From a virus, in IMG/VR virus record IMGVR_UViG_3300045738_001464, positions 1-59,968 of that record: a stretch of 59,968 bases of DNA. One strand, given 5' to 3'. Every line of letters starts with the position of its first letter. Position 1 is the stretch's first letter. The position numbers and the translations under genes are program-made. The notes under the pieces were generated by a model that saw only the letters and a list, made by a program, of their open reading frames with translations, was not told the DNA's origin and did no database searches. Shown here one piece after another: positions 1 through 20,765 of this stretch.

Positions 1-3000
1 GCATATTTGTCGTTGGAAATGAGCCACTATATTTTGATTTCTTGCTTTCAATAATCATTATTGATTTAATGAGCGCATACATCTCGGCTTGGGTCATATT
101 ATAATCCTCCCAAAGATCTCCCCATTCAGTCTCGAGAGCGTCCTGCATCTTGTCTTTTGTATCTGCATTCAGATACGCCGAACTGGTCATAAACTTCCTC
201 CAGTCAGTCATAAATTCTTTTCTAGGGTCCCAATCAGTCATAAGGCCGGGACGCTCCTTGCTAAGCTTCTCTGGCATTGCCCCAAGAGACTCCCCACCGG
301 GGTAACGAGTGCTTGGTTCAGTCCGGGCGGCGTCCCATGCCGCTTGGAATTTATCTGAAGGGCCATAGAGCATCGGGGCGCTTGCACCGATGTATGCGTC
401 CCTTCCGGGGGTATGGCCTGAGTCAGTGAGTTGGAACCCGTATCCTTCTTCCCTCAGGGAATGCCCTCTCATCACTCCCGTATTCTCCCACAAGCTCTTG
501 AAACTCGGCTTGTTCTGGATACTTGAACTTCTGGAAAGAGGATTTATCGCTGCCTGAAATGGAGTTCTCGTAACTGAAGCGGGAATAGTGCCAGATTGGT
601 TCCTGAAAGCATTTACAGTTCTTGCTGAAGCCGCCTGTTGCTGATTGTACATCATATTCGCCCATGCACTAGCGAAGGATTCGGGCATCGTCTTGAGGGC
701 CACTTCAAGGTCACCATTTGATTTTATTAAGTCTGCTTGAGAAGTGATAAGGTTGGACATTTGTTGGACATTGCCACCAAGAATTTCAACAAGATTTCTT
801 CTCAGTTGTCCTTGTTCTTTTTCTATTTCTCCTGTTATATCTTTTCTCTGTTTGTCTATCTCTCCGCTTTTCAATGTGCGAAGCATCTGAAAGATAAGAT
901 CTCCGTGCTTTGTTCTTGCTCCTCCGTATACGGCGGGTGTTCCGGGTATTCCGGGTCTTCCGGGAAAATCCTCCCTTGGGTCGGCGGGTACTGGAGGTAC
1001 TGGAGGCGTTATTACACCTCCTCTTAACCAGTCTGCTGCATCGTCTAGGGACTTACCTTTTAGCATTTCCGCTTTATCTTTACCGACAAGGTAATCAAGG
1101 TTCATACTAGAAGCTTCACGAAATCTATCTGCTTGTAATTTCTTTTTAAACCCTTGAAGATCGCCTCTTGAGAAATCGAATCCCATGCTTTCAAGAGTCT
1201 TCATGGATTGTGCCCTCTCGGTAAAGGCTCCTTCTCTTCCGGGCGCACCTGCACCCAAGGGGCTAAATAAGCCCTGTATAGCACTGAACATATCCTTTGA
1301 GGGAGATAGCGCCATCGTTTCCAGTTTTCTTCTGTGTTGAAAATCCAAATTGCTTTTTTGTACTACTGTTTGTGTTTTGACTAGCTCATTTGATATGTGT
1401 TGTTTGACTGTGTTTTTGGCCAGTTCGAGACTTAGAGTAGCCATTCTGGCTTGAAGCGAAATTTGAGTATTTTTGTCGAGCTTAGATCCCGGCCCCAAAA
1501 GATCTTCATACATTTTTGTATCAATATTACCCTTCATCATTTGTAAGCCTAATGTTTGTAATTGTTGCTCCGTTTCGGTTCCAAGTCCCATTGTTACTCC
1601 CTTGGCTCCCATTCCATAAATATCCATTCCACCTTTTGAATAGGCTTGAAAATTTTCATTGAATAAGGAGGCATTCCCGAGTTTTATCTTTCTTTGAAGA
1701 TTCTTGTCCAGTTCTTCATAGGAACTTATATTTTGTTCCATTTTACCAACGATTTCCTCCATTGTAACGGTTGCCTTATAAAACAAATCAGCCAATTGAA
1801 GTTCAGCTTGTCGGGCAGCTATAAGTTGTACGGTTTTCTCTTTTAAATTTACGAGCGCAGTAGCGGCACTGTTTGCGCTTTTGGTTTCGGCATCCGCTGC
1901 ATCTTTTAATTTTCTTGCTTTTTCTACAAATCTGATTAGAGTGTCAAATGCTGCACCGTCCATAAGGTCCACGAAACTTTCTAAATCATCATCTTTTGAA
2001 TCTATTCCCATTTCCCTGAGGCTTGCCTTAGTCGCTGGTCCCTTTAGTTTGCCAGACAGTACTATGTCTGCGGCCATTTTTCTAAATACTTCTTCTGATG
2101 GCGTTTGCTCCAATTCCCCGGCCTCATGCATCCTTTCTATAACACCGCCTTTGCCAGTGATCATAACTTGATTAGCAGCTTCTTGAGAAAGATCGGCCTG
2201 AATTTCTGCCAACTTCTTTGGATCACCCTTGGCATCAATTAATCTTTGCATTAATTTTGGATCTCCCAACCTTACAAGTTGGTCAACCATTGCTCTTCTC
2301 AGGGCTTCGAGTGCCTTTGGTCCCGCTCCGGCAGCAAGTGCCTGATTATATGAGTTTTGCGCCTTGGTATATTTGCTTGTCGCAGCAGCAGCTTCTTGTT
2401 TGATTTTAATTTCTGCTTCGTATTTTCTTCTTACGTCATCCAATATGGATTTACCCGCTTCCATCGTGCTGAACAGTGCCATAATTGATCCAATAGCAAG
2501 ACCAATACCCGCGCCAATCGCAGCACCGGGGATAGCACCAGCACCTCCGGCAGGAGCCCCTATCATGCTCCCGATCCATGCTCCAGTACCCGCCATTCCC
2601 AACGCAGTACCACCGCCTTGTAACATGGCTCGCTTTCTTCTTGAGTCCTTACCAACACCCCTTCCGCCGAAAGCCTCGGCTGCTGCGCCACCAACCATTG
2701 GAGCCACAAAACTCATGGCCATTCCTATACTACCTAGTGCCTGATTGTTTCTTGACGCCCAGCTTTGTTTCTTTAATTCGTTTCGTTTCTCTTTTGCGTT
2801 TTTTTCATTTTGTCGTGATACCGCTTCTCTCTCCTTCGCAGTTTCTTTAGCTGCTGCTGCTTCCTGTTTTTTCGCTTCCACGGTTCCAAGATTCACTCGG
2901 GCCTGTTTATTTACGACTTCTACCTGTGATGCCGCTGCCCTAGCTCTTGATTTTACGCTTTCTCTGTCTCCCTTTTTGAGATCTTCGATTCGCTTCGTTT

Positions 3001-6000
3001 CCGCTTCTCTAGATGCTCTTAGCTCTTCTGTGGTTTGTCCTGCTCCTGCCCCCTTTTTGTACTCCCCTGCGGCTCGACGCCGCTCTCGGTCCCTTGCGTT
3101 CCTTAACTTCAACTCCGCTGCCTCTTTTTTCTGAAGTGCAAGAGCCGCTTTCGCGGTAGGAGTCGTCCTTTTTAGGCGCTCGTCGTTCTTTGCGATTTTA
3201 TTCTCCGCCTTCCTTTGCTTTTCCGCCGTCTTCTCGACGTTTGCTTTGGCTTGCTGTGTCTCGCGATCCAATTTCGCTTTGTGCTCGCCAAGAGTCACGG
3301 GTCTAAATCTTTTCCCAGCCTTTTCGGCTTCTTTTGCTCCAGCTTGATTTATTGCTACTATTGTTAACCGTCGCTGAGCTACTGATCGATCCCTGAACTT
3401 TTTTTCTTCCTTTGTTGCCTTTTTTACTTCGCTTACTGCTTTTTCTTTTTCGCGAATCGTGTCTTTATGTACTTTTCTTAATTTTCTGTCAGTTTCTCTT
3501 TCACGATCCAAGACTTTTTGGGTAAGCTCTACTCTTTTTATTGATGTATCATGTTCATTTTTAGCTTGAGTAACTTGATCTATTGCGGCTTGTCTACCTC
3601 CAAGTTCCGTCGTTCTTGCCACGTTTGCTGCCTCCTTTTTACGAACATCCTCTTGAGTAGTTTCGATATTCTTCAATATTTGCTGCAACTGCTGTGCCTG
3701 TTGGTTTTGCTTTTGGTCACCCTTACCTTCAAAAACACCTAGGTCTCCAAGTTGTTTTCTAAGGGATTCAATTGTCGCTGGGCTCGGACTACCCTCAGCG
3801 ATATTCAAAAGCTTTTGTTTAATAGCAGGTAGTTTCTTTTCCTGCTTAATGTCTTTTTGTTCTTGTTCGAAAACTTTCGCTTCTGCTTGAGTAGCTTTTT
3901 CTGTCGCTATGACTGCCTTGGCTGTCGCCTTTTGGTCTTTTTCAAACGTAGCCTGAAGCTCCTTTAATTGTGAATCCATCATGCCATAAATTTTATATCC
4001 TGCGGCCCCTGCAGCCCCAGCCACAGCACCACCCATGAGTATATCTCCAATAAAGTTAGGAACGTGACCCGCTGCGGCTCCAGCCATTGCCGGATTGGGA
4101 TGATTCATAACAGCAGACCTTAAAGCCATCTTGGTTGGCTCATCACGCCTATTGCCAACCACTGGCCCTGAGTAATTTGGAGTATGTACGCTGGTGGCAT
4201 AAATTTGACTAGGGGGTAATCCACTGGCTTTCTTTTCTCTGGCGAAAGCGGCAGCCATTGGATCTGCGAAGTTTGGAACGTGACCACCAGCCATATTTAG
4301 CATACCTTTGGTTCCAGCTTGAAATTCCTTTATACTGTCCGGATGAAAAGCCTTACCCCAACTACTGCCGGGCATTTTGAACATAGTTGAATATGATCTA
4401 GCATCAGCATAAAGTTCTTGCACCTGTTGGCCCGAAAAAGGATGTTTGAAGCTGCTTAACACGCTTTCTCCCTGTGCACCACCACGGTATGAAGAACTCT
4501 TTGCACTCCTCCTTACTATATGTTTTGCAATAGGATTGTTTGATTGAAAGAATGTTAAAAATTCTCGCATTTCCTTGGGGATATTTGTGGCTCCAGAAAG
4601 ATAACTGGAAATATCACCAGTGGCCATCCCGCTGTTGCTCATTTTATCTCCCATGATTGTAGTTAGCCCTTTTTTGCTGCCACCTTGCCAACCAAATTTG
4701 GAAGGACCAAACCCCCGACGAAGCATGTACTTCAAGGCTGCTTCCGCATGTCCCGCTTCATGCAACACCACCCGTTCAAGCTCATCGCGTAGATTAAACA
4801 TAACTCCGGGCTTCTTGTTCTTTCCTTTAAGGGCATCCCATTGAGCTTGATCAGGGAATTTCCGCTTCAAGCCCTTGCTTGGATCAGTGCCGAAACGAAT
4901 TTGGGGTAAACCACCCTTTTGGCCTTTTATTGGAAATTCTTTATCGCCTTTGCCGCGAAAAATATCATTGTGTGGATGCCGCCGGATATCCATAGTACCT
5001 CTAGTAGGACTAAATGCCCCCATGAGCCCGGCTGCATCTCCAAACTTTCTGGGTGATGACTCGCGGTAATTAAAAGTAATTTTATCCCTAAGACCGCCAA
5101 TTAAGTGTGCGTATTTTGGGTCTAAGATTTGCTCAGATGCCGCTTTCATCGCAGGACCATCAACCATTCGACTGAGAGCTTTAAACTCTTCCTTGTTGAG
5201 GCCCTTAACACCCCCTATCTCTTTATCAATTCTAAATCTCCCATATTTTCCTGTTATGAAGTTCTGGGAGAATCGAGAAAAATTCGGAATATGACCTCCG
5301 CTTCTTACCCTATATCGCTGCTGGGTCCATTTTTGTCCGGGTGCGCCTCCTACTCCGGCTGCGGGTGGCATAGTAAAACCACCGGGTAATACTTTTCCGG
5401 GTCCCATTGGTTTTCTATTAGATATTATTTGTTGTATTTTTTCCCATAGGCTTAGACTTACGTTTTTGGCCCCTTTTACTAAGGGAGATTCACCCCATTG
5501 TCCTTTGAGCCAATCTCCTCCAGCTTTCCTAGCCCTCAGCCTTGAAGATTCGAGGTCCTTGATGCGCTGAGGTTCTTGATATCCAAAACTCGGAATGTGA
5601 CCTCCAGACCGTCTTTTTCTTCCAAATGCAGGACCCTGCATTTGCGGTTTTAGCCCAAGCGTTTCTTTGAGTAAATAAAGGGAAGACTCACCCTGCGGCA
5701 CTCCCCCGGCTTTCCACGGAGCCGCCTTGTCTATCCCAAGACCTTGCATCATTTGAAGTCTTTCCATCTCTTGACGAGTAAGCCATTTTTGTCCGGATGC
5801 GCCCCCTACTCCCGCTTTGGGCGGCATCATTTGATTACCGGGTTGTAACATTTTTCCGGGTCCCCATTTCATGAGATTCGGAATATGGCCACCAGCATAA
5901 GAAGGACCCAAATGCTTCATCATTTTCATTTCTGAAAGCATGTCTTTGTAGATATATTCTAGACCTTTTCCCTCGCCCAAGTATACCCGCCTTGCGTCTA

Positions 6001-9000
6001 AAGATTTCTCAAGGCCGCTCAATCCGATCTTATCAGCAAATTTACGATGCCTACGCATATCCGTAGCATGTTTCATCGCGTATTCTATTCCGGGTTGTAC
6101 GTGTCCAGACGGAGAGGTTTCATGGCCTCTGGGTCCAATTGTATAGCTCGTTCCGGGAGTTGTTACGACACCCGGAGGGAGTACTCGCGTTGCAACGCTC
6201 TCCGATTGTCCTGTTATCATACGTCCATAACTTGCAGTATCTTTGGCCGCAAGCCGTTGGTACATTTTGTCTTGCTGATCAGGTGATAACCTATTAAATG
6301 AGTTAGTAGCTCTTTCAGCTAACCTGTGATGACGAAAGAGTTCCTGTGGGGTTACTGACGTTAATCTGCGATCACCTATCATCTCCTGAGCGAAACCTTT
6401 ATCTTTCCCCCGAATACCTCCAACTGCGTTTATTGCTGCAATATTGTGATAATCTTTAATTCCTCGTTTACTATTAGTAATTTGTTCCAGAAGCCATTTG
6501 GGGGCTGTTTTCCAAAATGGGTCTGCAAGTTCACTTTGTGCCCTTAAGTCGGACCCTATGGCTTTCATCCCTGATGGTTTTGCTACATAGTTCCCCCACT
6601 CTTGTCTATCGACGTTCCATATTTCCTTTTTCTTTGGTTGGTAGACCTCCCCCTCTCCAACACTCCATTGTTTTCCCTGCTGGATATTCACGCCGGTATC
6701 AAACTTAAATGTCTCGTAAACCTCTTTGTTTGCGGGTTTCCACATCCTTCCACCCATCGCCATAGCTTGAGGAGTACCACCAATATTGAGTTGCATGTCT
6801 CTTGGGATATTAAACATTCCGTGATGTTCGCCTTTAGAAATCTTTTTCCACATCGCTTTTTTAGACTTTTGCATCATGAAGTCTATAAATTCCTTACCAG
6901 ACCCGAATTGGTTCATAAGCCATTTGGGGGCTGTTGGATCTTTACCCTTTATTGGAAAATACCCCGGAGCATGACCATCCACGCTATACATTTTCTTCAT
7001 CAGTTCTTGCTTAAATCCAGAATATTGGAAATCTCCCGCTCCTTTGTAATATGGAGTCTTTGGGCCAAATCCCCCGCGCCCAGCGAAGTTTGGAATATGG
7101 CCTCCAGCCATAAATGGTTGGTTCTCTATAAAACTTCTTCCTGTTTTATACGCACTCTGCCAACCGGGGGTAGTGTCTGCTGCGTATTTTTCCATAGCTG
7201 GTAGATGTTTTTTTCTCAAGAAGTTGGTTGCAACGGCGACATCTGGATGGCTTCCCCCTATTGTTTCAAGCATTTTTATATAGTAGTCAGGATACAGTTG
7301 CATCGATTTCCCTACCAAGTTGGCCTTAGTAAATCTGTCCGAGGTAGCTTTGATATCACCAAGTTGAGTAGCCCCGCTCCGAAGGGGGATGCCTACGTCT
7401 GCTGGACCCCCTCCTCCTGCGCTCCTATAATTTACTGCACCAAAATTATGAATACCCGGTGCTTTCTCGAAAACTATATCCTCAAAAAATTTGGCATAAG
7501 ATGGATCTTTGGTCAGGCCAAACGATTTGGCGGCACGACCTATATGCGAAAATACCTGTCGAGGAGATTCATAATTACTCAACATACTTGTGTCCATTCC
7601 TTGACTTCTTATTTTTTGGAGCATCCCTTTATCAAGCCCTTGGAAAGCTTTTGATTCCAAAATATGTGCCACGGTTGTTCCCACTGGAAGTATGTCTGCA
7701 ATTTCGTTTAGGGACGAAAAACTGACCCCCTGTACTTTATTACTGGTTAAAATTCTACCAATCGCATCATATCCTTCTTTGCTGGCTCTGGTATTTGTAT
7801 GTGTTTTAAACGCCTTAGTTAAGGGGGGTTTGTAATGTGCCTTGCTACTAGTGCGCCCAAACAGACCACCGACAGGAGATGGAACCAATCCCCTACCACT
7901 ACGAGGGTCTCCACTCCATCTTTGTTGCATTCCAAAATTAGGGACATGACCTCCAGCATATAACATTTCCATCAAGCCGTCAGAATGTTTTCTAAATTTG
8001 TGACCCCCCACACTGAATCCCATAATTCTATCAACTGCGGCTTCACGAAAATCTTGCGCGGGACCAGTGTCCCAAAAACGAAGATATCCCGGTCTCTCCT
8101 TATGGGAAGCCTTTCCTCCCTTGAGGCTTTTTGCCGCCCACCTCTTGCCTTGTCTTTCTTGAAATTGACCTCGTGCATCTTTAAATTGTATATTAAAGAA
8201 GTGTCCTGTTCTGGCAGAATATTCCCTTACTACCGCAGCCAACGTATCAGGATTCATTTTATCTCCCGCACCCCAAGGTTTTGGTTCTAGAGGGGCTATG
8301 AGTCCTCGCGCCGGAGCGTATCGGCTTTTCGGTTGCCGAGCGCGACTTACACCCGCAAAATTCGGAATATGACCACCAGCTAATGAATCGGGGCTATAGC
8401 CAATTTGTTGTTTAAATTCCCTTCTGTAAATTTTACCCGCCGAGCTTCCCTTCGGGGGTATAATGGCGGGTTGGGCAAAACCCGGAACACGTTTGACTTG
8501 TTCTGCTGTATTGTATGTAACTCTTCCCATCCCCGGCATTTGTCCCGTCTTGATTTTTCCGGGCATGTAACCACCAGCAATTGCTCCCATTATTTCAGCA
8601 GATTGATTTTGTTTGTTGAGATTAGGAATATGGCCTCTAGCCAGTTTTTTGACAGGCCCTCCTATCTTTGTCTCGCCTTTTAGATTGGTTCCACCGCCAC
8701 CCGCTACTATAGTTCTTGCCATCCCCCCCGCCTGTGCATCTATTACCTTCATTTTAATGCTTTGGTCAGTAATTAATTTTAGTATTTGTCTTTCAGCATC
8801 CCTCCTAGTTATGGTTCCCGCGATCAATTTACCAAGAATTACCTCCTGACCACCCAAAACTTCTGCAACTACTTGTTGCGTAGCCGCTATTTTCATAGAC
8901 TGAGACTGAATTTCCATAAATTCTAATGCAGCTTGGCCCATATATTTCGAAAACGTTACAACTATTTTCATTCCGAGTATCGCAATAGCAGCCAATCCCG

Positions 9001-10333
9001 GCCCACTTAAAAATTCTCCGAATCCCTTTATAAATCCTACTGCTATATCTTGCCCCAGACTCCTTCCCTTGGCGTCGCCCTTTTCAAAATATCCAAACAC
9101 CTTATCAAAAACTTTGATTATGTTTTCTATCGATGGGCCAAGAACAGCTTCACCAATGCCCTTACCTGCCATTGTCAACCTAGCCTTCATTTGGTTAATT
9201 TGGGCGTCAAGGGTCTTATTGAGTTCCTTATTCCTTAGTATAGCTTGGTTTGTGGCTTTATTTGATACATCTAGAGCAGAAGCATAAATCGAATAATCCT
9301 TTCCAAGATCACCCAATAAGGCTCTTAAAGTATTCATTTGAAATACTCCAGCAACTATTTCTGATGTATGCGCTTGCTGAGCCTTTGTTAGTTGTGGAAA
9401 TTTCTTTGCCAGATTTTCAAGGACAGTCATAGCTGGAAGCATAGACCCCTGTAGACCCCTTACTGCAACGCCAAGGGCTTCTAATTGGTCCAGAGTGTCT
9501 GTTCTTTGAATCCTTGTGAAAATACTCTTTAACCCGTTACCAATTACAGGTCCACCACGAGCGGTTGTTTGTTGCAATGAAGAAACAGCCGCGAGTAATT
9601 GATTGAAGTCAACCGAAACGTCTTGAGCGGTACTACCAACTCGCTTCATGGCTTCCGCAAGGTCTTGAGTACTGACAGCAAATGCGGCATCAACATTTGC
9701 CATTTTGTTAATGATTTGAGTTGAAGTAAGGGCAGATCTATTAAAAGTATTTATTGCGGCGGTTAATGCATTAACAGAAGCCTCCGCATCCATTCCAGAA
9801 AGCCTTGTCAATATAAGAGCATCGCTAGTTCTTCGTAGGGTTTCTTCTAGTGTGAGACCCTGACGAGCTAATTCTTTTGCTGCTATAGCTACCGTTTGGA
9901 ATGATTGTCCGGTTTTTCCAGCAATGTTAAATAACTCTCTAGAAAAACTTTGAAGTTGAGAGGAATTTGCGTTTAAAATAACATTGATATCTTGCAATTC
10001 CCTTTCTACATCTATCATTGTTTCGACAAGGAATCTAAATGCTCTCTGAAGTGCAAAAATAGCTCCGGCAGAAGCCCCGAATGCTAAAACACGGGCATTA
10101 GAAGCTTCAAGGGACTTTTGGAATTCGCCCAACGAACCCTTAATTTGTCCAAGGGGCCTTGTGAATTGTTTGGCATCGATACCCTTAACGCCCTTGTTAG
10201 CGGCTCTAGAATGCTCCCTACCATAGGCTTGGCCACTCTTTCGTCCAGCAGTAGCAGACTCTCGTAAGAGTCTTTTTTCGTCGAGGTCAAATCTAACCTC
10301 TGCCTCGATAACTCCAAATTTGTCTTTCGCCAT
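1..10333 (-). CDS. Giant tail tape measure protein, partial at the left edge, with embedded domains
   Basis: The frame is open from the ATG at 10333 to base 1, giving 3444 visible codons; the C-terminus lies outside the window. Residues about 60-330 look like the TP901-type tape measure core (helical, with RELQDINVIL, then ALTAAINTF and the SLQQTTARGG segment). This family spans the tail tube lumen and sets tail length. Residues about 565-2090 are atypical: nine copies of GGHIPNF or close variants separate segments of 69 to 403 residues, including one with HEAGH (residues 1858-1862) and one with a PD-(D/E)xK-like pattern (D979, D993-I-K995). Residues about 2120-2530 are a Lys/Glu-rich coiled coil. 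Residues about 2540-2625 are a Gly/Ala-rich hydrophobic stretch, typical of tape measures that reach the host membrane. The gene follows the chaperone-position genes, as expected. A GTGTAAT motif lies 25 bases before the start. The tape measure call is firm; roles of the inserted segments are inferred. Confidence 0.9.
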   Translation of the reverse strand, partial: MAKDKFGVIEAEVRFDLDEKRLLRESATAGRKSGQAYGREHSRAANKGVKGIDAKQFTRPLGQIKGSLGEFQKSLEASNARVLAFGASAGAIFALQRAFRFLVETMIDVERELQDINVILNANSSQLQSFSRELFNIAGKTGQSFQTVAIAAKELARQGLTLEETLRRTSDALILTRLSGMDAEASVNALTAAINTFNRSALTSTQIINKMANVDAAFAVSTQDLAEAMKRVGSTAQDVSVDFNQLLAAVSSLQQTTARGGPVIGNGLKSIFTRIQRTDTLDQLEALGVAVRGLQGSMLPAMTVLENLAKKFPQLTKAQQAHTSEIVAGVFQMNTLRALLGDLGKDYSIYASALDVSNKATNQAILRNKELNKTLDAQINQMKARLTMAGKGIGEAVLGPSIENIIKVFDKVFGYFEKGDAKGRSLGQDIAVGFIKGFGEFLSGPGLAAIAILGMKIVVTFSKYMGQAALEFMEIQSQSMKIAATQQVVAEVLGGQEVILGKLIAGTITRRDAERQILKLITDQSIKMKVIDAQAGGMARTIVAGGGGTNLKGETKIGGPVKKLARGHIPNLNKQNQSAEIMGAIAGGYMPGKIKTGQMPGMGRVTYNTAEQVKRVPGFAQPAIIPPKGSSAGKIYRREFKQQIGYSPDSLAGGHIPNFAGVSRARQPKSRYAPARGLIAPLEPKPWGAGDKMNPDTLAAVVREYSARTGHFFNIQFKDARGQFQERQGKRWAAKSLKGGKASHKERPGYLRFWDTGPAQDFREAAVDRIMGFSVGGHKFRKHSDGLMEMLYAGGHVPNFGMQQRWSGDPRSGRGLVPSPVGGLFGRTSSKAHYKPPLTKAFKTHTNTRASKEGYDAIGRILTSNKVQGVSFSSLNEIADILPVGTTVAHILESKAFQGLDKGMLQKIRSQGMDTSMLSNYESPRQVFSHIGRAAKSFGLTKDPSYAKFFEDIVFEKAPGIHNFGAVNYRSAGGGGPADVGIPLRSGATQLGDIKATSDRFTKANLVGKSMQLYPDYYIKMLETIGGSHPDVAVATNFLRKKHLPAMEKYAADTTPGWQSAYKTGRSFIENQPFMAGGHIPNFAGRGGFGPKTPYYKGAGDFQYSGFKQELMKKMYSVDGHAPGYFPIKGKDPTAPKWLMNQFGSGKEFIDFMMQKSKKAMWKKISKGEHHGMFNIPRDMQLNIGGTPQAMAMGGRMWKPANKEVYETFKFDTGVNIQQGKQWSVGEGEVYQPKKKEIWNVDRQEWGNYVAKPSGMKAIGSDLRAQSELADPFWKTAPKWLLEQITNSKRGIKDYHNIAAINAVGGIRGKDKGFAQEMIGDRRLTSVTPQELFRHHRLAERATNSFNRLSPDQQDKMYQRLAAKDTASYGRMITGQSESVATRVLPPGVVTTPGTSYTIGPRGHETSPSGHVQPGIEYAMKHATDMRRHRKFADKIGLSGLEKSLDARRVYLGEGKGLEYIYKDMLSEMKMMKHLGPSYAGGHIPNLMKWGPGKMLQPGNQMMPPKAGVGGASGQKWLTRQEMERLQMMQGLGIDKAAPWKAGGVPQGESSLYLLKETLGLKPQMQGPAFGRKRRSGGHIPSFGYQEPQRIKDLESSRLRARKAGGDWLKGQWGESPLVKGAKNVSLSLWEKIQQIISNRKPMGPGKVLPGGFTMPPAAGVGGAPGQKWTQQRYRVRSGGHIPNFSRFSQNFITGKYGRFRIDKEIGGVKGLNKEEFKALSRMVDGPAMKAASEQILDPKYAHLIGGLRDKITFNYRESSPRKFGDAAGLMGAFSPTRGTMDIRRHPHNDIFRGKGDKEFPIKGQKGGLPQIRFGTDPSKGLKRKFPDQAQWDALKGKNKKPGVMFNLRDELERVVLHEAGHAEAALKYMLRRGFGPSKFGWQGGSKKGLTTIMGDKMSNSGMATGDISSYLSGATNIPKEMREFLTFFQSNNPIAKHIVRRSAKSSSYRGGAQGESVLSSFKHPFSGQQVQELYADARSYSTMFKMPGSSWGKAFHPDSIKEFQAGTKGMLNMAGGHVPNFADPMAAAFAREKKASGLPPSQIYATSVHTPNYSGPVVGNRRDEPTKMALRSAVMNHPNPAMAGAAAGHVPNFIGDILMGGAVAGAAGAAGYKIYGMMDSQLKELQATFEKDQKATAKAVIATEKATQAEAKVFEQEQKDIKQEKKLPAIKQKLLNIAEGSPSPATIESLRKQLGDLGVFEGKGDQKQNQQAQQLQQILKNIETTQEDVRKKEAANVARTTELGGRQAAIDQVTQAKNEHDTSIKRVELTQKVLDRERETDRKLRKVHKDTIREKEKAVSEVKKATKEEKKFRDRSVAQRRLTIVAINQAGAKEAEKAGKRFRPVTLGEHKAKLDRETQQAKANVEKTAEKQRKAENKIAKNDERLKRTTPTAKAALALQKKEAAELKLRNARDRERRRAAGEYKKGAGAGQTTEELRASREAETKRIEDLKKGDRESVKSRARAAASQVEVVNKQARVNLGTVEAKKQEAAAAKETAKEREAVSRQNEKNAKEKRNELKKQSWASRNNQALGSIGMAMSFVAPMVGGAAAEAFGGRGVGKDSRRKRAMLQGGGTALGMAGTGAWIGSMIGAPAGGAGAIPGAAIGAGIGLAIGSIMALFSTMEAGKSILDDVRRKYEAEIKIKQEAAAATSKYTKAQNSYNQALAAGAGPKALEALRRAMVDQLVRLGDPKLMQRLIDAKGDPKKLAEIQADLSQEAANQVMITGKGGVIERMHEAGELEQTPSEEVFRKMAADIVLSGKLKGPATKASLREMGIDSKDDDLESFVDLMDGAAFDTLIRFVEKARKLKDAADAETKSANSAATALVNLKEKTVQLIAARQAELQLADLFYKATVTMEEIVGKMEQNISSYEELDKNLQRKIKLGNASLFNENFQAYSKGGMDIYGMGAKGVTMGLGTETEQQLQTLGLQMMKGNIDTKMYEDLLGPGSKLDKNTQISLQARMATLSLELAKNTVKQHISNELVKTQTVVQKSNLDFQHRRKLETMALSPSKDMFSAIQGLFSPLGAGAPGREGAFTERAQSMKTLESMGFDFSRGDLQGFKKKLQADRFREASSMNLDYLVGKDKAEMLKGKSLDDAADWLRGGVITPPVPPVPADPREDFPGRPGIPGTPAVYGGARTKHGDLIFQMLRTLKSGEIDKQRKDITGEIEKEQGQLRRNLVEILGGNVQQMSNLITSQADLIKSNGDLEVALKTMPESFASAWANMMYNQQQAASARTVNAFRNQSGTIPASVTRTPFQAAINPLSRSSSIQNKPSFKSLWENTGVMRGHSLREEGYGFQLTDSGHTPGRDAYIGASAPMLYGPSDKFQAAWDAARTEPSTRYPGGESLGAMPEKLSKERPGLMTDWDPRKEFMTDWRKFMTSSAYLNADTKDKMQDALETEWGDLWEDYNMTQAEMYALIKSIMIIESKKSKYSGSFPTTNM
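4295..5268 (-). other. Embedded metallopeptidase-like segment (HEAGH) in the tape measure protein
   Basis: This segment lies between the seventh and eighth GGHIPNF motifs, about 325 residues. It contains ERVVLHEAGHAEAAL, with HEAGH encoded at 4748-4762. That fits the HExxH zinc site with the hydrophobic and small residues usual in zincin helices. Upstream is a beta-like stretch with TRGTMDIRRH. The downstream third ligand is not certain; several Glu, Asp and His follow. Tape measures are known to carry peptidase or lysozyme domains for cell-wall penetration, but catalytic activity here is an inference from the motif. Confidence 0.55.
7112..7930 (-). other. Embedded PD-(D/E)xK-like segment in the tape measure protein
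   Basis: This segment lies between the third and fourth GGHIPNF motifs, about 273 residues. It has a helix with FFEDIVFEKA, then PADVGIP (D979) and, 13 residues on, GDIKAT (D993, K995), followed by a helix with KSMQLYP. The helix-Glu, Asp, D-x-K, helix order is what PD-(D/E)xK nuclease folds show. Only the pattern can be seen, and a chance match in a long protein is possible. A nuclease carried in the tail would be unusual. Confidence 0.35.
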
Positions 10334-10371: not shown

Positions 10372-11385
10372 TTACTCTGCTCCGTGCAATTTCATAAGCT
10401 CTTCCATATTCAATTGACCTCCTTTCTTTGCGGCTGCTTTTGCCAAACTAATAGTGCCCTCATCATCATTTGAGGCTCCAAGCCGCTGCAATTCCTCTTT
10501 GGATGCTCCGACTAATGAAGATCCACCCGCTTTGTCCGAAGTGTGTCTTTCCATCGCTTCTTGTGCATTTTGAGAAGATTCATACCATTCTATTATCTTA
10601 TCTGGATCACCCATTATGTCTTCTGGAGCTTTATTTTTCGAACGAGTCATTAATGATTTAAAATATTTCCCAAGCCCAAATAATTCGGCCTGAAAAAAGG
10701 TTAATTCACAAATGGGTTTGCCATAAAAAGCATAGGCGTCATCTTCCGAAAGATAAAAGTGGTTAAGGAAAAAACCATTCAAAGCTATTCTTTTCATGTT
10801 TTTACTATAAAAGCCGTCTATCTTTTTGTTATAGAGTGTTATTAAATCTATTAATTGGTGATTTGATAATTCATCGAATTCTTCTTTTTCGAAAAGGCTT
10901 TCTTTAAACTCTTTGTCTTTGAAAATTGAATTAAAAATATAAAATTCGTTTATTTTTTTAGCCGCAAAGGATTCACAAGTCATACCAACAAGCTCTTCTT
11001 TTTTTTGATTGAGTTTAGATATTTCTTCTTCAGAGTCTTTTATTTGAGTAACTATTTGATTGATTTCTCTTTTTAAGAAAAGCTTGGATTTTGAATGTCT
11101 CAAATTTACGATGTAACCGCTTAGTTCTATTATCCTTGAATCTTCTTGATCCGTCCATAGTTCATCTTTTTTTAACTCTTTTAATTTTTCTTTTTCTGTT
11201 TCGAGTCCATTATCTTTGGCTTTTTTCATGCATTCGCTTTTAAATTCATCTATGTCTGATGCATCAAAATGAGTTAAATGCTTTATATAAAAGTGCCCAA
11301 ATTGTTTACTAGTGGAGACAGAACACCCCTTAAGAATATCAACAAAAACAAGTCTTAATTGACTATTTGAAACTTTTTCTTCCAT
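10372..11385 (-). CDS. Uncharacterised protein in tail-chaperone position
   Basis: Protein of 337 residues from the ATG at 11385 (MEEKVSNSQ). A GTG at 11418 would add 11 residues but would place the terminator hairpin at 11392-11410 inside the gene; neither start has a good ribosome site. The middle is a Lys/Glu-rich coiled coil (residues about 70-140). The C-terminal part holds a conserved-looking block with YAFYGKPICELTFFQAEL, and the tail is polar. Its place directly before the tape measure gene, after the tube-like gene, is where tail assembly chaperones or tail completion factors sit. I recognise no family, and the role is positional inference only. The short poly-T of the upstream terminator abuts the ATG, so expression may depend on readthrough. 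Confidence 0.6.
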   Translation of the reverse strand: MEEKVSNSQLRLVFVDILKGCSVSTSKQFGHFYIKHLTHFDASDIDEFKSECMKKAKDNGLETEKEKLKELKKDELWTDQEDSRIIELSGYIVNLRHSKSKLFLKREINQIVTQIKDSEEEISKLNQKKEELVGMTCESFAAKKINEFYIFNSIFKDKEFKESLFEKEEFDELSNHQLIDLITLYNKKIDGFYSKNMKRIALNGFFLNHFYLSEDDAYAFYGKPICELTFFQAELFGLGKYFKSLMTRSKNKAPEDIMGDPDKIIEWYESSQNAQEAMERHTSDKAGGSSLVGASKEELQRLGASNDDEGTISLAKAAAKKGGQLNMEELMKLHGAE

Positions 11386-11391
11386 AAAAAA

Positions 11392-11410
11392 GCCCCCAAT
11401 AATAGGGGGC
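11392..11410 (-). terminator. Intrinsic terminator directly against a start codon
   Basis: Minus strand reads GCCCCC, loop TATTATT, GGGGGC, then six T and immediately ATG of the gene starting at 11385. A textbook hairpin plus T-run, placed before the last gene ahead of the tape measure. Confidence 0.75.
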
Positions 11411-11432
11411 AAACTCACGGCTAAATGAGTAG

Positions 11433-16956: not shown

Positions 16957-16964
16957 ATTACACT
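16957..16964 (-). promoter_or_regulatory. GTGTAAT element at the start of the neck module
   Basis: Minus-strand AGTGTAAT, 8 bases before the ATG at 16948 and overlapping the stop codon of the upstream radical SAM gene. It would separate neck gene expression from the modification island. Confidence 0.5.
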
Positions 16965-18333
16965 AAAATTTTACCCATTCTTTTTTGTCTTTGTGCCACA
17001 TGACTGTTTCGTTAATGGGCAATTCGACTACATCAATTCCGTTTTCCTTTCTTAAGTCCTTCGAGTTAATGAAATAGACCTCGTTCTTGTACCATATGTC
17101 TTTTAGTAAACCTTTCTTAACTAACTTTAACCCATCTTGGATTCTTTTTTCTTCTTCTCTTTTTCTTTTTTCTTCTTCTCTTTTACTTTTTATTTCTTCG
17201 TATTCTCGAAGATTTTCTTCATATTGAGATATATCTTTCCCTTTTCTCAAGTTTCTTAGTTGACCCATCGCTATCACGAGAGAATCACTTTCTTTTTTAT
17301 TTTCGGAATCTTCGGGATACAGGTCAAAAAAATCGTCCCTCAATACCTCAAGAAACTCTTTGTGTTCGGGGTGTTTTTTTTCTTGGATAGCCTTTTCTAA
17401 CCACTCGTCAAGATAATCCATATAATGTAAATCTCTTATGAAATCCGGCTCTATTATTTGAAATTGTACATAGTTTGCGCCATAATTTTCAGACATCTTG
17501 ACAAAGTCTTTCATTTCTTTAAAATTATTCTGTTGCACTACAAAGCTGGTTTGAAAAGAGCATATCTCTCCCGACGCTTTGAGTTCTCCGATAAATTTTA
17601 AATTTTCATGTATACCCTCCCAAGTACCACCTCTTCTATTTATTAGGTATGTTTCCTCTTCGGTGGCATCGACAGAGACGCTTATATGTATTGGTATAGT
17701 CTTTACGTAGTCGCTAATTGTATCCCAATACTTTTTAACAAGTAGGCCGTTAGTTAGAATTCTTAAGAACTTGAGATTTGGTGCGTCGTCTTTTTTGAGG
17801 GTTTGTAAGAGTTTTCTAAATACTGGGCTCGCAAATGCATCTCCTGATGCGGTTATGTCAAAAATTTTTGCATCTTTGAAAAAGTTGTTTTTTATTTTTT
17901 CCTGTAGTTCGAGTGTCTCTTTCTTTTTTTCGCCGGAGATTACAATGACTTTTCTCCTGCACGACGGGCAAGACAAATTGCAAGACCTGTCATATGTGAA
18001 TTCTATTTCTAGGGGACCATGATCTAAGGTGATTTTATTTTGTTTGATATCTTCGACTACTTCTTCATCTCTTATATTCTCAAGTTTTAGAACCGGACCT
18101 GTTTTCGCCACCAAATGTGGACAAGATTTGGCGTTACAATATTTGAATGAACCATCTAAAATTGATTTCCTAAAGTCTTGAGCTTTTTTTCCATTCCAAA
18201 CTTCTTCAGCAGATTGAACCTTAAGGTTACCTATTGTATAATGATCAATCCACGGAGGGCAGCAAGGGAGAACATTTCCGTTATCCATTACTTGCATGTG
18301 ATCAAATGCCCTTGTACAATAATATTTACTCAT
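16963..18333 (-). CDS. Radical SAM protein with N-terminal SPASM-like cluster domain (second copy)
   Basis: Protein of 456 residues from ATG 18333, which overlaps the stop of the methyltransferase gene (ATGA). Residues about 6-71 hold a SPASM-like cysteine set (C6, C24, C25, C66, C71) with the usual N-G-x-V-x-x-CC and I-G-N-L blocks. The radical SAM motif C118-x3-C122-x2-C125 (CNLSCPSC) follows, then a barrel with ITASGDAF, SVDATEEETY and RRGGTW. In the family this fold cleaves S-adenosylmethionine to a 5-deoxyadenosyl radical; the SPASM domain carries extra iron-sulfur clusters. The canonical order is radical SAM then SPASM, so the order here is reversed. A charged Arg/Glu/Lys helix (residues about 385-410) precedes the C-terminus. 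Paralogue of 19629-20765. Substrate unknown. Confidence 0.8.
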   Translation of the reverse strand: MSKYYCTRAFDHMQVMDNGNVLPCCPPWIDHYTIGNLKVQSAEEVWNGKKAQDFRKSILDGSFKYCNAKSCPHLVAKTGPVLKLENIRDEEVVEDIKQNKITLDHGPLEIEFTYDRSCNLSCPSCRRKVIVISGEKKKETLELQEKIKNNFFKDAKIFDITASGDAFASPVFRKLLQTLKKDDAPNLKFLRILTNGLLVKKYWDTISDYVKTIPIHISVSVDATEEETYLINRRGGTWEGIHENLKFIGELKASGEICSFQTSFVVQQNNFKEMKDFVKMSENYGANYVQFQIIEPDFIRDLHYMDYLDEWLEKAIQEKKHPEHKEFLEVLRDDFFDLYPEDSENKKESDSLVIAMGQLRNLRKGKDISQYEENLREYEEIKSKREEEKRKREEEKRIQDGLKLVKKGLLKDIWYKNEVYFINSKDLRKENGIDVVELPINETVMWHKDKKEWVKF

Positions 18334-18968
18334 TTTTCTATACAAACTAAGTTTTGATAATATGTTATGCTCTTGTATGGGCTTTGAAGCCTTAAATTAT
18401 CTAAGTCTCTTATTTCGCTAGACCAATACTGCTCGTATAGGTCTCTATTTTGAAAAACAGATCTATTATTATCCTCTTCCAGTGCTGTCATCTCTTTTAT
18501 GTTTGTGGAATTGACTATCCTATAATGCCACCCATATAGCGTCAAAACTGTATCTTCTATTATATAAAGCTTCGTAAATTTGTCTTTAAAAAATTCAAAT
18601 GAAGCTAATATATCTTCTACAAAGTGAGACCCGTCATCTATTATTATATCTAATGGGCCAGATTTTTCATATACATCATATAATGTTTTTAGGCTTGACT
18701 GCGAGCCCTCAAAAATATTTATATTAGGTTTCAATAATTCAGCATTGTTTTTCCATCGACCCGAGCAATCGATTCCGTATATTTCTGCGTTATTAAAGTA
18801 CTCATTAAACACCTGAATTGATGACCCATATCTCACACCAATTTCCAGTATTTTGACAGGTGCATCGCGATGTGGCCCCAGAGCTTTTTCATAAAACCAA
18901 TCGTAATTCCCCTTATCTGTATCATACTTTTCGCAAAGGAGTTTAAAGTCGCTTTTGTTCATATGCAT
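18330..18968 (-). CDS. Class I SAM-dependent O-methyltransferase, sugar-type
   Basis: Protein of 212 residues from ATG 18968 (ATG 18962 is an alternative). The N-terminal YDTDKG, then VKILEIGVRYGSS (SAM-binding loop), IYGIDCSG and LDIIIDDGSHF match the MycE/TcmP-like family that O-methylates sugars on natural products; the IIDDGSH block is its metal and catalytic region. IIEDTV follows, as in that family. The gene overlaps the sulfotransferase upstream by 26 bases and the radical SAM gene downstream by 3. Alongside a glycosyltransferase and a sulfotransferase, a role in decorating a glycan, on phage fibres or on host surface sugar, is the simplest reading. Confidence 0.75.
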   Translation of the reverse strand: MHMNKSDFKLLCEKYDTDKGNYDWFYEKALGPHRDAPVKILEIGVRYGSSIQVFNEYFNNAEIYGIDCSGRWKNNAELLKPNINIFEGSQSSLKTLYDVYEKSGPLDIIIDDGSHFVEDILASFEFFKDKFTKLYIIEDTVLTLYGWHYRIVNSTNIKEMTALEEDNNRSVFQNRDLYEQYWSSEIRDLDNLRLQSPYKSITYYQNLVCIEK

Positions 18969-19628: not shown

Positions 19629-20765
19629 TTATTTGTGTTTATATTCCGTTAAGTTTCCAAGATCAACAATTGGATCATCGAAGATCGGGTTCTGTAAAGT
19701 CTTCGCAAACTCCCCAAACTCCGGGTGCGTATCTTTCCAGACGCAATTGCGTTCATATACTTGGACCGGCCACGTACCCCAATCTACAAGTAGCGAAAAA
19801 AATACTTTATCCACCTTCAAGTCTAAACCTATCTTCACTAGCTTATCTAATTCTTTGTAGTTAGCTTTTTGGACAACGCAGTCTATTCTTAGCTCATTGA
19901 TAAGACCTTTTTGTCTTAGAGAACTTAAGAACTTCATATTCTCTTGAAGCCTGTCCCAGTTTCCGCCTCGACGAGTAATTTGATATGTTTCAGGCGTTCC
20001 CGCATCATATGAAACCATAACTGTGTTGATGTTTTTTTGTATTCTTTTCATTTTGTCCCAATACCTTGGGGTAAACATTACTCCGTTTGTTTGTAGGTTA
20101 AAAAATACTCTAGGAAACTTTTCTCCATCTACGTTAAATAGCAACTCTCTAAAAAGTTTTGACCCAAATGGATCTCCCGAACCAGTTACGTTAATAAGGC
20201 AATAATTATCATGAGGCTTTCCAAAGATATGTGCTATTAGTTTGTCTTGTATTTTTTTCTTGGTCTCGTAAACTTTGCCTTCGTAATAAAAGATTTTATT
20301 CACCCTGCAGCTTGGACAGCTTAAATTACAGGACTCATCATAACAAAGGTTATAGAATGTCGGCTCAAGGTCTTTTATTTGATTGTTCTCTATGATTGAT
20401 TTGTGGCGAGGATCTTTGACTTCTTCCCTGTCGGGTAAAGAACCATTCTGTATATAGGGACATAGCTTGTGGTCACAATACTTAAAAGAACCATCTAGTA
20501 TGCTTTTCCTTATGTCTTGCGCTTTTTCCGAATTAAAAATTTCCCCAATCTCTTTTTCTTTTGCGTTTCCTATCTTCTCAGGAAGCCAACTCATACAACA
20601 AACAGACACTGTGCCATCGGGATGGATTTCAAACTGGTCGAATGGATTTTTACAAAATTTTCCTTCTGACTTTTTAGGAATGTTGATTACCCCTTCAGAA
20701 TCTAGGAATTTATCCTTCCTAATCCTTTCTCGGATACTCATTTTATGTCTTTTGTCCCCATTCAT
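19629..20765 (-). CDS. Radical SAM protein with N-terminal SPASM-like domain (first copy)
   Basis: Protein of 378 residues; the ATG overlaps the glycosyltransferase stop (ATGA, 20762-20765). Residues about 38-102 form the SPASM-like region (FCKNPF, DGTVSVCCMSW, IGNAKEKEIGEIF, then CDHKLCPY). The radical SAM site CNLSCPSC follows at about 146-153, then NVTGSGDPFGS, SYDAGTPETYQITRRGG and CVVQKANYKEL. The blocks line up with the second copy at 16963-18333, about 80 residues longer. The two copies bracket the sulfotransferase and methyltransferase. Possible roles are peptide or sugar modification by radical chemistry; substrate unknown. Confidence 0.8.
   Translation of the reverse strand: MNGDKRHKMSIRERIRKDKFLDSEGVINIPKKSEGKFCKNPFDQFEIHPDGTVSVCCMSWLPEKIGNAKEKEIGEIFNSEKAQDIRKSILDGSFKYCDHKLCPYIQNGSLPDREEVKDPRHKSIIENNQIKDLEPTFYNLCYDESCNLSCPSCRVNKIFYYEGKVYETKKKIQDKLIAHIFGKPHDNYCLINVTGSGDPFGSKLFRELLFNVDGEKFPRVFFNLQTNGVMFTPRYWDKMKRIQKNINTVMVSYDAGTPETYQITRRGGNWDRLQENMKFLSSLRQKGLINELRIDCVVQKANYKELDKLVKIGLDLKVDKVFFSLLVDWGTWPVQVYERNCVWKDTHPEFGEFAKTLQNPIFDDPIVDLGNLTEYKHK

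Follow-up and report, generated by a model that had tools for sequence, protein, structure and literature searches.

Large multidomain proteins that phages and plasmids deliver together with their DNA have been described as polyvalent proteins, for which self-cleavage freeing the individual domains was proposed, and whose shuffled effectors include metallopeptidases (Iyer et al., 2017; PMC5512222). Polymorphic toxin systems likewise join toxin or enzyme domains, which are exchangeable and spread by recombination, to a constant carrier (PMC3482391). Tape measure proteins (TMPs) exit the phage tail first, contact the inner-membrane machinery and form, or help to form, the DNA channel (PMC11445458; PMC13190303), and cleavage has been reported or proposed for some of them (PMC11445458). 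Here we describe the TMP gene at one end of the 59,968-nucleotide IMG/VR virus record IMGVR_UViG_3300045738_001464 (the window, i.e., the whole stretch of DNA that was analysed), in which a seven-residue motif of the GGHIPNF type recurs nine times, together with related TMPs from metagenomes. In this family the segments between motif copies, termed cassettes, have been inserted, duplicated, reordered and exchanged, and the junctions of these rearrangements fall at the motif. As in polyvalent proteins, several diverse enzyme- or effector-like domains are present per polypeptide and are shuffled among relatives. Unlike here, polyvalent proteins are head or conjugation proteins (TMPs do not appear in the text of PMC5512222), whereas the present carrier is a TMP with one universal short motif at the domain boundaries. 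Polymorphic toxins, in turn, mainly swap one C-terminal domain, whereas here up to ten segments follow one another within the central part of a virion protein, every joint bearing a tag. The system can thus be described as the polyvalent-protein theme on a PF10145-type TMP, with membership of a toxin or polyvalent family not proven.

The TMP open reading frame (ORF) of the window lies on the minus strand and runs uninterrupted for at least 3444 amino acids (aa), being open at the window edge (Table 1). Judged by its homologous N-terminal tape domain, the product is a PF10145/TP901-type TMP: PF10145 (PhageMin_Tail) matches residues 140-322 (E 1.3e-27), and the N-terminal part also has hits to eleven PHROGs tape-measure families, the best at 3.5e-48. 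The TP901-type TMPs (also lambda gpH, T5 pb2 and JBD30 gp46) have this homologous domain and enter the envelope at infection, but no close cultured relative was found: over the tape domain, the best cultured TP901-type TMPs reach ~28% identity, and no motif copy occurs in the four of these distant relatives that were checked. A first-pass annotation of the DNA had described nine recurrences of one motif at irregular intervals of 69 to 403 residues, each followed by a different, non-repeated segment. Nine copies are indeed present in the same frame, all inside the single TMP ORF between residues 566 and 2094, but they are not identical: GGHIPNF occurs three times, GGHVPNF twice, and GGHIPNL, GGHIPSF, AGHVPNF and RGHIPNL once each, the variants differing from GGHIPNF at one or two positions. 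The intervals are irregular as described, yet have to be corrected to 72-404 residues from start to start (87, 141, 283, 404, 96, 102, 337 and 72), and the segments are mostly distinct, except that segments 5 and 6 share a piece of ~26-39 aa (GPGK..MPP.AGVGGA.GQKW; minus strand, 5783-5863 and 5327-5404, respectively; hhalign 94%). The residue before the motif is alanine in seven of the nine copies and serine in the other two. None of 2000 shuffles of the window TMP contained a motif copy, and none was found outside the TMP gene in the 60-kb record. Since the copies of one gene use differing synonymous codons, the motif appears to be conserved as a peptide and not as DNA.

Relatives carrying the TMP N-terminal domain, which is matched by more than 500 IMG/VR contigs, were drawn from the best 80 matches per scan, and the resulting family set comprises 102 non-redundant TMPs (those named below are numbered with L). 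The strict form G.[IVLM]PN[FLYM] occurs 436 times in these 102 proteins, compared with 1.2 copies in shuffles and five for the reversed pattern, and the family consensus of the element is [AS]xG[FYH][IV]PN[FY][AS]. Most commonly a TMP has four copies (55 of 102), the maximum being eleven, and the usual layout is a motif, spacer c0 (~73 aa), a motif, one cargo segment (~250 aa), a motif, spacer c1 (~65 aa) and a last motif. In aligned relatives the column entropy is 0.34 bits within the motif vs 2.13 elsewhere, and in a 31-row alignment nearly all invariant columns fall in the four motif copies or on catalytic-type cargo residues. The motif is essentially confined to this TMP family: 350 copies lie in detected TMPs, and the remaining hits are mostly in long ORFs that resemble TMPs and lie on the same contigs. 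A DNA scan of all IMG/VR for one motif variant, which carries no bias toward TMPs, gave six matches. Four are full-length family TMPs with seven to 11 copies; of the other two, one lies in a partial ORF holding two copies and one is non-coding. Among the open-access papers searched we found no paper using the motif strings as this motif and no description of cargo arrays in TMPs, which is not proof of novelty.

The first-pass annotation had likened the motif to a standard connector by which unrelated domains are slotted into a tail protein, and the comparison of relatives supports this. The 344 inter-motif segments, ~50 to more than 600 aa long, fall into 74 BLAST clusters, of which 49 are singletons. 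Cassette order is swapped between L184 (c2-c24-c13) and L200 (c2-c13-c24); c4, c6, c8 and c9 occur in differing orders in L198, L194, L196, L118 and L091; and duplications are seen in L133 (c10 three times) and L091 (c17-c4 twice). When a cassette stands beside different neighbours, BLAST homology typically stops no more than a few residues from the motifs on either side, a result that is partly circular because the segments were defined by the motif. This applies less to the codon junctions: in six TMP pairs with N-terminal parts 95-100% identical, the codon match runs into the motif, collapses to ~5% within the cassette and resumes at the next motif. In pairs of this kind, the cargo is 20-30% and the flanking spacers 75-98% identical. 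L130 and L131, for example, are 100% identical in the N-terminal part and 98% in cassette c22, followed by an unrelated cassette (24%) and by c1 at 98%. Pooling of 31 left and 29 right junctions from pairs with at least 75% identity, which overlap and are not independent, gave codon identities mostly of 0.3 to 1.0 outside and ~0.05 inside the exchanged segment. We therefore consider it almost certain that the TMPs are built of cassettes and that these are exchanged at the motif.

Many of the cassettes resemble enzymes in sequence. Pfam matches include a poly(A)/CCA polymerase head (PolyA_pol) in a cassette of L206 (3e-14), a cytidyltransferase-type domain (HIGH_NTase, 1.5e-7), GNAT acetyltransferases (best 9e-7), PcfJ (1.3e-6), a staphylococcal nuclease (SNase, 1e-4) and a GHKL ATPase (HATPase, 1e-4) whose cassette also bears an HEAAH peptidase signature. 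Both features are found in the c22 cassette of L130 and L131, which is 98% identical between the two phages. The commonest cargo, comprising clusters c2 and c3, linked to each other by profile, and their profile relatives, is present in 77 of 94 TMPs; among 48 members G170, F173, E174, D196, K220 and K234 are invariant, which conforms to an E..D..(D/E)xK signature of the kind seen in PD-(D/E)xK nucleases. PADLOC returned a single weak match. PcfJ, ParB_N, GNAT and peptidase signatures are found in relatives, and no published polyvalent domain family scored above threshold in the window protein. The enzyme assignments within the window TMP are read from residue signatures, with no Pfam-level domain support for segments 3 and 7. 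Segment 3 contains KFFED (948-952), GDIK (992-995) and GKSMQ (1008-1012), and by these residues may be PD-(D/E)xK nuclease-like. A match of the same segment to a contact-dependent inhibition (CDI) toxin was not used, having an E of only 0.095 and an aligned stretch that misses the signature residues. Segment 7 combines HEAGH (1858-1862) with a downstream ELYADA (1973-1978), i.e., HExxH plus an acidic metal ligand, as in a putative zincin-type metallopeptidase; it had no relatives in Pfam, PDB or IMG/VR and matched no known peptidase family. For segment 4, none were found in IMG/VR or PDB.

Table 1. Features of the TMP gene and of other genes in the window (positions in nucleotides; residues of the TMP).
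Feature	Residues	Position	Strand	Remarks
TMP gene		1..10333	-	start ATG 10333, no stop before contig end; PF10145 and PHROGs matches
N-terminal tape part, conserved	1-565	8639..10333	-	common to hundreds of IMG/VR contigs
Transmembrane-like hydrophobic stretch ahead of motif 1	442-461	8951..9010	-	
Motif 1, RGHIPNL	566-572	8618..8638	-	
Conserved spacer c0	573-652	8378..8617	-	found in 75/102 TMPs
Motif 2, GGHIPNF	653-659	8357..8377	-	
Cargo segment 2	660-793	7955..8356	-	only in window TMP; sub-threshold WYL_2 / Sm-like match, E 0.033
Motif 3, GGHVPNF	794-800	7934..7954	-	
Cargo segment 3	801-1076	7106..7933	-	common with L029, 27% identity; E...DxK...Q signature
Motif 4, GGHIPNF	1077-1083	7085..7105	-	
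Cargo segment 4	1084-1480	5894..7084	-	no relatives found
Motif 5, GGHIPNL	1481-1487	5873..5893	-	
Segment 5	1488-1576	5606..5872	-	short piece repeated in segment 6
Motif 6, GGHIPSF	1577-1583	5585..5605	-	
Segment 6	1584-1678	5300..5584	-	short piece repeated in segment 5
Motif 7, GGHIPNF	1679-1685	5279..5299	-	
Cargo segment 7	1686-2015	4289..5278	-	putative zincin-type metallopeptidase, by signature motif
Motif 8, GGHVPNF	2016-2022	4268..4288	-	
Conserved spacer c1	2023-2087	4073..4267	-	found in 66/102 TMPs; 79% identical to L029
Motif 9, AGHVPNF	2088-2094	4052..4072	-	
C-terminal tape part	2095 onward	1..4051	-	contains hydrophobic Gly-rich stretch
Hydrophobic glycine-rich stretch	2599-2621	2471-2539	-	in C-terminal tape part
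348-aa protein		10372-11418	-	
Radical SAM gene		16963-18345	-	
Radical SAM gene		19629-20765	-	
Tail fibre / collagen-like protein, 1673 aa		25649-30670	-	

We propose that the protein may act as a multi-effector TMP, in which independent cargo cassettes would be arranged in series between two conserved tape parts, with the constant spacers c0 and c1 bracketing the array and the consensus tag, placed in flexible linker, marking each cassette boundary. Because the TMP is first to exit the tail and passes into the envelope, the cassettes could be carried with it into the host during infection and act there, and we regard it as likely that they are delivered effectors. In several of the TMPs checked, including that of the window, hydrophobic stretches are found both ahead of the first motif and past the last one, so that the array of cargo might cross the membrane as a loop. 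A single partner would read the tag at every copy, and the likeliest outcome would be a polyprotein-like proteolytic release of the cassettes, either after tail assembly or at ejection, followed in likelihood by docking of the tag to a chaperone or within the tail. On balance we lean towards this model as a whole, namely a multi-effector TMP with cassettes exchanged at a short linear tag that a partner probably recognises in trans, cutting being the most likely purpose.

Strong conservation within a disordered linker is the usual mark of a short linear motif that is read by another protein. In an AlphaFold model of the four-motif relative L048 (residues 480-1035, 31 sequences, mean predicted local distance difference test score (pLDDT) 66), each motif copy falls in a low-confidence stretch (pLDDT ~50 or less) between better-folded pieces. 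The first-pass annotation had named structure prediction as a check, and here the copies lie in linkers and not within a repeated fold. A hinge or structural turn within a single repeated TMP fold, as glycine and Pro-Asn, which favour turns, might suggest, is therefore very improbable, also in view of segments that range from ~50 to more than 600 aa in 74 clusters. Sensing of pH or metal through the histidine, which the same annotation had considered compatible with the motif and which is present in nine of nine copies of the window virus, has a practically negligible probability, since the histidine is largely peculiar to this virus: family-wide the position is Phe in 60%, Tyr in 15% and His in 12% of the copies. 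At this same position (+1) the copies within one protein agree more often than expected (0.549 vs 0.387 ± 0.015), although this comparison is not corrected for phylogeny. L089 has no cargo and keeps c0, while its motifs are all decayed. Co-variation and the motif loss in L089 together point to a partner that recognises the motif in some step linked to the cargo, rather than to a passive hinge, and the tag is probably recognised by one common partner.

Within-protein co-variation fits any common partner, and an aromatic, proline-containing short linear motif predicted to sit in a low-confidence linker would also suit a docking or assembly tag, whose copies would bind the tube wall, a tail assembly chaperone or the hub and keep the uncut cargo ordered or unfolded. 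Inside a tail channel the tape density measures only ~20 Å across (PMC11445458), and the cargo would therefore need to be held in an extended form. However, the long stretches of tape that flank the cargo region are without motif copies, and L089 keeps its tape while having lost intact motifs along with the cargo, so that the tag is seemingly inessential for tail assembly; we consider docking rather unlikely. The swapped pairs with their junctions on motif codons could instead be explained if the ~20 coding bases served as micro-homology, or if the motif marked the sole flexible junction that is tolerated, with no partner involved. This is improbable, since the variation of synonymous codons within one gene indicates selection on the protein, the strict conservation of G..PN[FY] exceeds what a flexible linker needs, and the motif letters co-vary within a protein; on the codon variation, the idea that the motif DNA is purely a site of recombination was rejected, and it is retained as a minor rival.

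Proteolytic release has its own difficulties, and cleavage is the weakest link of the proposed model because no protease partner was identified. A general head-maturation protease site was rejected, as the other proteins encoded on the TMP-bearing contigs, head genes included, do not carry the motif. Several further observations weigh against the model. The neighbourhood of the TMP gene yielded no protease shared by these phages, and among ten window genes checked, mostly adjacent to it, the only protease was a Clp-type head protease encoded far away. Most TMPs lack a recognised peptidase-like cassette, cuts at the outermost motif copies would sever the tape itself, and L123 retains a cargo domain although its motif is degenerate. 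The c2/c3 fold, modelled with a pLDDT of 87, had no Foldseek match in PDB or BFVD, so that nuclease activity of the commonest cargo is hypothetical, and all relatives are metagenomic. The chance that the common partner is a protease falls somewhat short of even.

Regarding the genomic context, a homologue of the 348-aa protein precedes the TMP gene in ~86 of the 102 relatives, and the protein is a candidate for a tail chaperone or for a partner of the motif. Two radical SAM genes, of which one has a SPASM domain, lie upstream of the window's tail genes and are an unusual phage cargo; the window also encodes a large tail fibre or collagen-like protein. The contigs of the TMP relatives L117, L119, L122, L123 and L125 were binned in metagenome-assembled genomes of Flavobacteriales, a weak hint at marine flavobacterial hosts.

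Tentatively, the family can be viewed as a reloadable polyprotein TMP of an abundant uncultured aquatic phage clade, in which up to ten serial effectors, joined and separated at a universal tag that a phage or host partner may read, are renewed by cassette swaps. Injected phage proteins are usually viewed as head or pilot proteins, whereas here the TMP appears as an evolvable delivery platform with sharp joints. The reading predicts cutting or docking at one defined peptide. The tag provides a handle for mining hundreds of new phage effector domains, which may include anti-defence or takeover enzymes, and it would offer a natural rule for which domains are able to ride inside a tail.

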